Assembly: GCF_038397775.1 (NCBI RefSeq)
Contig: NZ_CP151650.1
Coordinates: 248,001-312,000 of the forward strand
DNA: 64,000 nt
Direction: 5' to 3'
DNA from: Pseudomonas sp. RC10
GTDB lineage: Bacteria; Pseudomonadota; Gammaproteobacteria; Pseudomonadales; Pseudomonadaceae
Shown: piece by piece, positions 5,309 to 11,652 of the stretch
Layout of the letters: each line of letters begins with the position of its first letter
Numbering within the stretch: position 1 is the stretch's first letter
Translations under genes and position numbers: made by a program
Notes under the pieces: model-generated
The model's database searches: none
Told to the model about the DNA's origin: nothing
The model's input: only the letters and a program-made list of their open reading frames with translations

Positions 5309-5317
5309 ATCGCAGGC

Positions 5318-5360
5318 AAAAAAAACCCCGGACTTCATATGGGGAGGGGAAGTTCGGGGT
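5318..5360 (-). terminator. Rho-independent terminator of ersA
   Basis: A twelve-base stem with one mismatch (5325-5336 with 5349-5360) is followed on the minus strand by T8. The same stem has no T-run on the plus strand, so it acts mainly for ersA. It may still slow transcription leaving engB. Confidence 0.88.
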
Positions 5361-5446
5361 CTAAGTCCAGACCTTTAGGGAAAAGTCCGGATATCTGCCA
5401 ACACTTAACACAACATAGGAGCATGAATGGCTACGTCAGCCATTCG
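5318..5446 (-). ncRNA. ersA: Small regulatory RNA ErsA
   Basis: The interval between engB and polA encodes ErsA in Pseudomonas and Spot 42 in enterics. On the minus strand an AlgU-like promoter is followed by about 129 nt. This opens with an 8-bp hairpin (gaatggct / agccattc, 5425-5445) and ends with a strong terminator, ACCCCGAACTTC pairing with GAAGTCCGGGGT around a C-rich loop, then eight T (5318-5325). ErsA is about 130 nt long and acts with Hfq through C-rich UCCCC segments on targets such as algC mRNA; CCCCTCCCC is present in the terminal loop here. Position, length, promoter type and terminator agree. The exact 5' end is inferred. Confidence 0.82.
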
Positions 5447-10383: not shown

Positions 10384-10397
10384 AACCACTGTGGGAG
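10384..10397 (+). repeat. Left fragment of a REP sequence cut by the IS110 element
   Basis: Reads aaccactgtgggag. It is identical to the first bases of the intact REP pair near 15720 and continues at 11570 (ccggcttgctggcga). Joining the two pieces restores an ordinary REP pair, so the sequence between them is the inserted element. Confidence 0.9.
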
Positions 10398-10400
10398 ATT

Positions 10401-11363
10401 CTATGTTTGGGGGGCAACCCCCAAACGTTTCGTAGAGTCGTACTCTTCCCGTTTCTTCATCAGCGAGAAGGCCACCCCTGCGAGCTTCCTGCTCAATATC
10501 GTCAACGCTTCAGTTCTGGCTTTCCCCTCGCCTATTTTCTTCTCGTAATACGGTTTCCATGTCGCCGATCGGCAGGCGGCCATTGAAGCGTTGTAGCCTA
10601 GCCGGCGTACCTCGGGGTCGCCTTTCTTGCTTAGCCGGCGGCGACCGGATTTGTTCCCGGAATCCGACACCCGCAAATCCAGCCCCAGATAGGCGATGTA
10701 CGCATCTACGTTTTTGAATTCGCCTCGAAGGAATGCCGCAAACAGCGCTGTGGCGGTCAGGAACCCGACGCCTTCGATGCCCTGGCAACGTTTGACCTGA
10801 TCCATTTCACCGGACTTGATCAGCACTTGCTTGAGCTGTTTCTCGATATCTTTGATCAGATGGCTGAAGCGACGCATCAACTTCTCGAACCCCTTCCTGA
10901 GGTCTTTTTCATCCTTCCAGCCTTGGCGCAGTGACGTCTGGCTATTGACCAGCGAGGCCCTGCGATGCAGCAGATGCTTGAGCTGGGTGTGCAACTGGGG
11001 TGGCGGGCTCCACTGACGCAGCTCGTCACCTTCCTTTTCCAGATAGCGAGCCAGCAGATGTGCATCGCACGCATCTGTTTTGGCGCGCTTGCCCAGACTT
11101 TCTCGATATTTGCTTACGCGTGCCGCATCGACGACAAACACCAGGTGCCCCATGTCATGGGCCATTTCCACTAGGTCCAGATGGTAGGTATTGGTCGCCT
11201 CGAGGGCGATGGCACTGCCTTGAGGCAATGTCTTGAGCCAGTGGTGAATCGAAGTTCGCTCATTGACCAAACAATGAGTTTTATCCACACCACGCTGAGC
11301 GGTGACAAGTTCCGCCATCGCCACATCGACACCCACAATCGCCGCTGCATCAAGGATTGCCAT
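10401..11363 (-). CDS. IS110-family recombinase (DEDD transposase)
   Basis: A 320-residue recombinase with the two-part IS110 layout. The N-terminal RuvC-like DEDD domain has D13 (VGVDVA), a Glu in IALEATNTYH near 55 and the K-T-D-A-C-D-A block near 96. A central helical region follows, then the Transposase_20 domain (GIEGVGFLTATALFAAF near 195, SDSGNKSGRRRLSKKGDPEVRR near 235, YNASMAA near 255), which should carry the catalytic Ser. GGAGGG lies 8 bp before the ATG. The TAG stop overlaps the right-end donor sequence. The frame is intact, so the element may still be active. Confidence 0.93.
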   Translation of the reverse strand: MAILDAAAIVGVDVAMAELVTAQRGVDKTHCLVNERTSIHHWLKTLPQGSAIALEATNTYHLDLVEMAHDMGHLVFVVDAARVSKYRESLGKRAKTDACDAHLLARYLEKEGDELRQWSPPPQLHTQLKHLLHRRASLVNSQTSLRQGWKDEKDLRKGFEKLMRRFSHLIKDIEKQLKQVLIKSGEMDQVKRCQGIEGVGFLTATALFAAFLRGEFKNVDAYIAYLGLDLRVSDSGNKSGRRRLSKKGDPEVRRLGYNASMAACRSATWKPYYEKKIGEGKARTEALTILSRKLAGVAFSLMKKREEYDSTKRLGVAPQT

Positions 11364-11399
11364 GTCACACCCTCCGAGTTAGGGTTGAAGAGCTTGCTG

Positions 11400-11550
11400 G
11401 GGGTTCACCGTAAGCGCTGGCTTGCTTCTATCGTCGGTCCAGGCCGATGCATTCCATATCGGCGCTTGTAGGTGACAGGGTGGGGCTGGAAGTCTCCCAA
11501 CGGTCTGTACTGGCTAGAGTCAGATTCGGCTTTCCGTCCCTCCCACCCCA
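11400..11550 (-). ncRNA. Candidate bridge RNA of the IS110 element (bounds approximate)
   Basis: In IS110 elements the non-coding end encodes a bridge RNA whose loops pair with target and donor DNA. Read on the minus strand, AAGCCG (11527-11532) equals the left target, TGGGAG (11494-11499) is complementary to the right target with its CT core, TACAAG (11465-11470) is complementary to the left element end with its CT core, and ATAGAA (11426-11431) equals the right element end. The first two flank a hairpin at 11504-11524 and are enclosed by a GGGTGGG/CCCACCC stem (11542-11548 with 11478-11484). The last two flank a hairpin GCCGAT/ATCGGC at 11443-11463. Ends of the transcript are not determined. 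Confidence 0.75.
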
Positions 11551-11569
11551 TCAAGTCTAAACATACAAG

Positions 11570-11652
11570 CCGGCTTGCTGGCGAATGCGGTCTGCCTGTA
11601 CCTCATCAGGCGACTGACACGACGCCTTCGCCAGCAAGCCGGCTCCCACAGG
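11570..11652. repeat. REP pair, right part (interrupted by IS110)
   Basis: Continues the split REP: ccggcttgctggcgaatgcgg, a spacer of about 35 bp, then the inverted copy cgccttcgccagcaagccgg and ctcccacagg. The right arm still contains an intact AAGCCGGCTCCCA site. A further half-REP of another type (tgtaggagcgcttgcccgcgatg) lies at about 11675-11697. Confidence 0.88.

Follow-up and report, generated by a model that had tools for sequence, protein, structure and literature searches.

What does the non-coding left end of an insertion sequence contribute to the choice of the sites at which that element is found? The question arises in a 64,000-nucleotide stretch of the Pseudomonas sp. RC10 genome (hereafter the window), which holds an IS110-group element on its minus strand. 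An original prediction, made from the letters alone, read the left end of this element as the template of a bridge RNA, with four guide hexamers matching target and donor on both sides of a CT core. All four hexamers and both of the hairpin stretches that go with them are present on the minus strand where they had been placed, and CT is found at both ends of the element. Their joint occurrence is, as claimed, unlikely by chance: with two to four alternative hexamers allowed per guide, all four appeared in 0.02% of 5,000 dinucleotide shuffles of the left end, while single guides matched in 6-18%, the target pair in 3.2% and the donor pair in 0.28%. The set thus exceeds chance, but shuffles cannot say which hexamers act, and homologues were used instead.

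The answer that they give can be stated at the outset. The left end very probably encodes a bridge RNA, and it is highly likely that this RNA is of the IS621 design, with donor guides that differ from those first proposed. The evidence is of the sequence kind: the ends of the element, its use of sites, the tracking of targets by guides, the conservation and co-change of the donor guides, the structure and the protein family.

The Element and Its Recombinase

The element spans 1172 bp, left core CT included. Its parts and immediate surroundings are as follows.

10398..11569, minus strand: IS110-group element, ends taken from six copies with differing flanks
10401..11363, minus strand: tnp, DEDD recombinase of 320 aa, its stop codon within the left donor ATAGAAT
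11364..11569, minus strand: left end, putative bridge RNA template, 206 bp up to tnp (alignment, structure, covariance model)
11570..11576, minus strand: left target AAGCCGG (host REP)
11568..11569, minus strand: left core CT
11563..11569, minus strand: core plus right donor, CTTGTAT, the left end of the element
10398..10404, minus strand: left donor ATAGAAT, the right end of the element
10396..10397, minus strand: right core CT
10389..10395, minus strand: right target CCCACAG (host REP)

A query covering 10390-11575 has six full-length matches in its own genome, all of which round to 100% identity (bit score 2140 for five, 2135 for one). The ends are fixed because the flanks of the six copies differ beyond them, and the common layout, with a slash at each junction, is ...AAGCCGG/CTTGTATG ... 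ACATAGAAT/CTCC... The core dinucleotide CT stands at either end in all six, as in the IS110 group, and the genome holds many uninterrupted sites of the same sequence, as expected of scarless insertion.

A long non-coding left end (206 bp) and a short right end are also typical of the group. On the right, the tnp stop codon falls inside the last 7 bp of the element, i.e., inside the left donor, so that donor and coding end constrain one another. Directly abutting this donor is a hairpin, GTTTGGGGG-TTGC-CCCCCAAAC (10405-10426, minus strand); of 48 distinct right tails, 26 can form at least seven pairs here, and their arms differ in sequence. An alignment of four right ends was too small for use.

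The 320-aa protein carries both IS110 domains, PF01548 and PF02371, above their cut-offs, that is, a DEDD RuvC-like domain and a Tnp domain with the catalytic serine. Among solved structures, only ISCro4 and IS621 match it at E <= 0.001. In the alignment with IS621, the EAT, TDxxD and SK motifs of that protein fall on E55, D97, D100 and S245, and the first D (D13) lies outside the aligned part.

Insertion Sites

All six copies sit at CCAGCAAGCCGG/CTCCYACA, i.e., at REP-like AAGCCGG/CT sites: every left flank ends in CCAGCAAGCCGG, and the right flanks start with CTCCCACAG in five copies and CTCCTACAA in one. The genome contains 117 uninterrupted GCAAGCCGG/CTCCYACA sites (GCAAGCCGGCTCCYACA) and a commoner class of 592 GAATTCG/CTCCYACA sites (GAATTCGCTCCYACA). 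Among the 109 CTCCYACR sites of a 400-kb sample, AAGCCGG precedes four and GAATTCG 30. If only these two classes are counted and equal access is assumed, the chance that all six insertions lie at AAGCCGG is about 3e-5 (123/715 to the sixth power). The right target hardly varies in the close clade, where 132 of 144 copies have CTCCCA, 11 CTCCTA and one CTCTCA.

Relatives

Relatives were sought with the protein in a sample of 398 genomes of the genus, at most five candidates being scored in most of them. Matches at E <= 1e-60 occur in at least 50 of these genomes, its own counted, and those outside its own genome are about 45-56% identical. Of 170 loci, 150 received their boundaries from an automatic procedure and the other 20 were left out; because six loci repeat others, the 150 amount to 144 distinct copies. 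The alignment of left ends has 51 members: 48 of the 49 distinct automatically bounded ones together with L052, L141 and L164. L052 belongs to the closest relative found, and its donor end is the same, as read with right ends from other contigs (L049-L051). More distant relatives (32-50% identity) came from searches of class, phylum and order and from two family searches. A plasmid search at E <= 1e-30 returned no match, and a scan of genome contigs gave seven fragments, every one from Pseudomonas sp. NFACC02.

The Target Loop

11542..11548, minus strand: outer stem, 5' arm GGGTGGG (helix also in the alignment)
11527..11532, minus strand: left target guide AAGCCG, as originally placed, one base off the clade register
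11504..11524, minus strand: inner hairpin
11494..11499, minus strand: right target guide TGGGAG, as originally placed
11478..11484, minus strand: outer stem, 3' arm CCCACCC (helix also in the alignment)

Do the guides of relatives change with their targets, as in the IS110 group? For the left guide, the seven bases that stop two bases short of the target-loop hairpin were compared with the majority left target of the same element. The weighted mean match over the 51 relatives is 5.76 of 7, against 4.40 when targets are permuted (0 of 20,000 permutations as high); with one row per distinct loop (23 rows) the values are 5.70 and 4.26 (again 0 of 20,000), and these permutations ignore kinship. 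A site-by-site scan points to the same place, in that five of its nine strongest identity signals lie on the diagonal joining target positions -6 to -2 with columns 48-52. Positions -10 and -9 account for the remaining four, and values up to 0.28 turn up in the complement scan; such signals are expected from relatedness and REP symmetry. Positions were ranked by gain in concordance because rare variants dominated the site-by-site z-scores, a measure adopted after the z-score results had been seen.

A second comparison used 19 elements picked for variety and scored each by its best match, wherever in the left end this stood. Right guides (18 elements) reach 7.39 of 8 against 6.46 under permutation, and left guides (17 elements) 6.12 of 7 against 5.19, each with 0 of 20,000 permutations as high and kinship ignored; the best match lies outside the guide in L176 and L001 on the right and in L175, L178, L184 and L151 on the left. 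On the right side, co-changes can be read directly: CGTAGGAG goes with CTCCTACG in L135, TGTAGGAG with CTCCTACA in L151 and GAGCCGAG with CTCGGCTC in L178, while L184, at a CTCCTACA site, still has TGTGGGAG. Both target guides first proposed, AAGCCG and TGGGAG, are thereby borne out. Homologues at other targets, which the original prediction had named as a check, do change their guides with those targets, though mismatches occur in several (L022, L025, L026, L030); in L022 the guide reads AAGCCCG and the target AAGCCCC in four of five cases.

The left guide of the window element has a peculiarity of its own. Elements of the L024 and L026 type place seven guide and two core letters before the hairpin (AAGCCCG-AT, AAGCCGG-AA). 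The window element has AAAGCCG-AA there and one extra T before the right guide, so that it matches AAGCCGG at four of seven positions in the clade register and at six of seven after a shift of one base (AAGCCG plus a mismatch). This slip explains why the match first noticed stops one base short of the core. That the left target guide of this very element is off register by one base is among the less expected findings. The shifted form stands in the six near-identical copies here and in the left ends L052-L055 of a relative, and therefore it spread.

The Donor Loop

11462..11465, minus strand: outer stem, 5' arm GCGC
11451..11457, minus strand: corrected left donor guide ATGGAAT, facing left donor ATAGAAT with one G-T wobble
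11434..11447, minus strand: inner hairpin TCGG-CCTGGA-CCGA
11421..11431, minus strand: corrected right donor guide, split into AT (11430-11431) and CAAG (11421-11424) (conservation, IS621 geometry)
11414..11417, minus strand: outer stem, 3' arm GCGC

In IS621, as described, the 5' side of the donor loop carries the left donor guide, and its 3' side carries a right one in two pieces, A157-U158/C162-G165 (PMC11208158, PMC11208160). The same arrangement can be read here as ATGGAAT (11457-11451), hairpin (11447-11434), and ATAGAAGCAAG (11431-11421). RGAAT at 11451-11455 and CAAG at 11421-11424 are each kept in 51 of 51 aligned left ends. Three distant relatives, read by eye, changed left donor and guide together: L178 (donor ATAGGAT, guide AAGGGAT), L180 (ATAGAAC, TAAGAAC) and L192 (ATAGAAC, GAGGAAC), the last two coming from one family, so that a single event may lie behind both. 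Variation in the right donor is slight, and its guide therefore rests on conservation and on IS621; the constancy of the donor ends is in part a product of the automatic setting of boundaries. The inner hairpin at 11434-11447 is paired in 89.2% of alignment cells and has 10 two-sided changes, a number reached in none of 500 shuffles, and one of its four pairs is open in 21 of 51 sequences. As for handshake pairing, the base after CAAG is C and target position 7 is G in 49 of 51 majority targets; the exceptions are few, L141 having G with C, which fits, and L022 T with C, which does not.

Overall Structure and the Closing Helix

11547..11555, minus strand: closing helix, 5' arm CTTG..GGG
11393..11401, minus strand: closing helix, 3' arm CCC..CAAG, just upstream of tnp

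Folding, another of the checks first named, did not help: the single sequence folds no better than shuffles of it (z -0.38, 68 of 200). The alignment is more informative. A 28-pair structure, i.e., the alignment consensus minus three pairs plus the inner donor hairpin, and so derived from the alignment on which it is scored, is paired in 97.5% of cells and shows two-sided changes in nine of its pairs, where shuffles give 2.7 (none of 500 as high). The covariance model built on it finds the left end in all 15 distant loci given to it (22 had been fetched), with E-values, which are rough, of 2.4e-30 to 2.5e-3; its best match in 400 kb of host DNA has a similarly rough E of 6.3. A conserved two-loop RNA of the IS110-group kind is thus seen by alignment and model alike. 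The model did not find L013, of another IS110 family, and it did find the left end of L032. The latter left end (L032:2437-2563, minus strand) is only 127 bp long, with a target loop and a missing donor loop; the gap lies between an apparent pair of CCCCTTC repeats, and the element is a single match in its genome. In Rfam searches at the gathering cut-off and at E <= 10, no bridge RNA matched in the window; the small RNA ErsA (RF01719, 124.4 bits) lies elsewhere, at 5310-5424 on the minus strand.

The helix that closes the whole RNA is paired in 99.7% of cells, with five of seven pairs invariant. When arms are compared across 21 chosen elements, the two arms of one element score 9.24 and arms mixed between elements 7.16 (0 of 20,000), and changed arms come as pairs, e.g., CCTGTCGGGG:CCCCGACAGG and TGCTGGGGTG:CACCCCAGCA. 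Five of the 21 score below their own mean with the tails of others, among them the window element (5.3 against 6.5), whose score is low because its helix is interrupted. A covarying helix of this kind is another of the less expected findings. A stem-loop before the target loop, as in IS621, has no good counterpart in the seven close relatives examined; it can form in some distant ones, where the same strand pairs so (L171, L173, L182). Could the RNA switch, by way of closing helix and 5' stem-loop, so as to be a free bridge RNA in one state and a tnp leader in the other? The idea is a speculative one and rather unlikely to be right.

Weighing the Alternatives

The original prediction had the donor loop start with the right guide, TACAAG (11465-11470), and end with the left, ATAGAA (11426-11431), around a hairpin at 11443-11463. 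Both hexamers match the donor exactly and, as noted above, the pair is rare in shuffles, and the offsets are indeed equal for target and donor. The order of guides is what does not stand, since it runs opposite to that described for IS621 (PMC11208158). TACAAG occurs in one of 51 aligned left ends, with TATAAG in L052, and ATAGAA in 19 of 51; at least 23 of 51 have CAAG by itself at 11465-11468, where its G is part of the GCGC stem. The proposed hairpin is paired in 79.1% of cells and lacks any two-sided change, so that 11434-11447 is the better choice. ATAGAA overlaps the corrected right donor guide and is not the left one; it matches the left donor because ATA and TAT recur at both donor ends. 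That the loop is built as first drawn is accordingly very improbable.

Might the agreement of guides and targets instead reflect the shared ancestry of elements and host REPs, the left end being just a structured tnp leader or the template of a regulatory RNA such as Asr9? Elements and hosts are related, the signals off the diagonal (-10, -9, and the complement scan) do show background and REP symmetry, and ISPpu9 is described as having a 244-nt tnp 5'-UTR with an antisense RNA there (PMC8450116). Against this, the left-guide comparison gains 1.47 at its best offset and 0.40 at the next, L178 and L180, whose hosts are unrelated, have right guides that changed along with the right targets, and the six insertions avoid the commoner GAATTCG sites; we give this explanation little credence. 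Just as doubtful is the view that the bridge RNA is genuine but has decayed, and that the register shift marks a copy that no longer targets precisely. The four of seven matches in the clade register would fit it, while six near-identical copies at one type of site, and the shifted form in the left ends of L052-L055, speak against it. The reading preferred is therefore that of a bridge RNA built like that of IS621 and directed at a Pseudomonas REP, as first proposed, on the strength of the guide tracking, the covariance model and the single site type of the insertions.

How would such an RNA work? The order of guides along it would be that of IS621: left target, right target, left donor, right donor. 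The first loop would pair with the REP target, its left guide with the bottom strand of AAGCCGG and its right guide with the top strand of CT+CCCA. In the second, which would pair with the joined element ends, ATGGAAT would bind the bottom strand of ATAGAAT, and AT and CAAG, the two pieces of the right guide, would bind the top strand of CT+TGTAT. By analogy with IS621, transcription would start from the junction of an excised circle, the DEDD recombinase would hold the RNA, and strands would be exchanged at the two CT cores, which is why the circle would enter the REP in one orientation. A match to a promoter at the junction is weak (8 of 12, without a control), and none was found in the integrated region.

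Relation to Known Systems

The closest described system is IS621 of E. coli (PMC11208160, PMC11208158). As far as those reports describe it, it shares with the present element the IS110 group, a left-end bridge RNA, the CT core, a REP target, the order of guides, the right donor CTTGTAT and a split right donor guide. The differences from that description are a left donor ATAGAAT, a left target guide shifted by one base and, in this clade, a helix joining start and tail instead of a clear 5' stem-loop; the proteins match at E 5e-25 only. ISPpu10 of P. putida, compared by its description (PMC11208160), is likewise an IS110-group element of Pseudomonas REPs with a predicted bridge RNA, and could be a member of this clade. 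ISEc21 and the related ISMch6 (seekRNA), in the account of PMC11187229, share the IS110 type, an RNA upstream of the gene, a bottom-strand match before the top-strand one and natural redirection between relatives; they differ in element and target and are described for a short RNA with target matches. The IS1111 group, with its RNA downstream of tnp and the top-strand match first, was considered and set aside, since here the RNA is upstream and the bottom-strand match comes first.

ISPpu9 of P. putida, again compared by description (PMC8450116), has an IS110-family transposase, inserts in REPs and has a long tnp leader. It differs in that Asr9, antisense to this leader, and the sense RNA Ssr9, partly complementary to Asr9, are described as regulators of tnp (PMC8450116). 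A bridge RNA would lie in that leader; of these two RNAs, one might be an anti-bridge RNA and the second might resemble a bridge RNA, which is an idea only. Within our sample, a second IS110 family (L013-L019, G000) has seven copies and a protein 28% identical. By eye, its sites read ..AGCTC/CT/AC.. and its donor ACGGTAT/CT/TGTATC, and in its left end AACGGTATCC is followed by ATGTACAAGG, which is how donor guides are ordered in IS621.

A listing of IS110 elements found in Pseudomonas REPs dates from 2006 (PMC1525189), and both bridge RNAs, with predicted guides for ISPpu10 among them (PMC11208160), and redirection between relatives (PMC11187229) were published in 2024. The element is thus of a known kind, that of the IS110/IS621 bridge-RNA elements, and the member itself is new. 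Among the titles returned by literature searches, none concerns this clade or a closing helix.

Significance

Matching of hexamers alone can misplace donor guides, and homologues correct them; the corrected guides are directly testable. If the RNA did switch by way of its closing helix, the supply of guide RNA would be tied to translation of the transposase. The clade as a whole amounts to a natural series: the donor end is nearly fixed, and the left target guide is rewritten to the REPs of each host. Such a series helps to learn how much mismatch, and what shifts of register, bridge RNAs tolerate.
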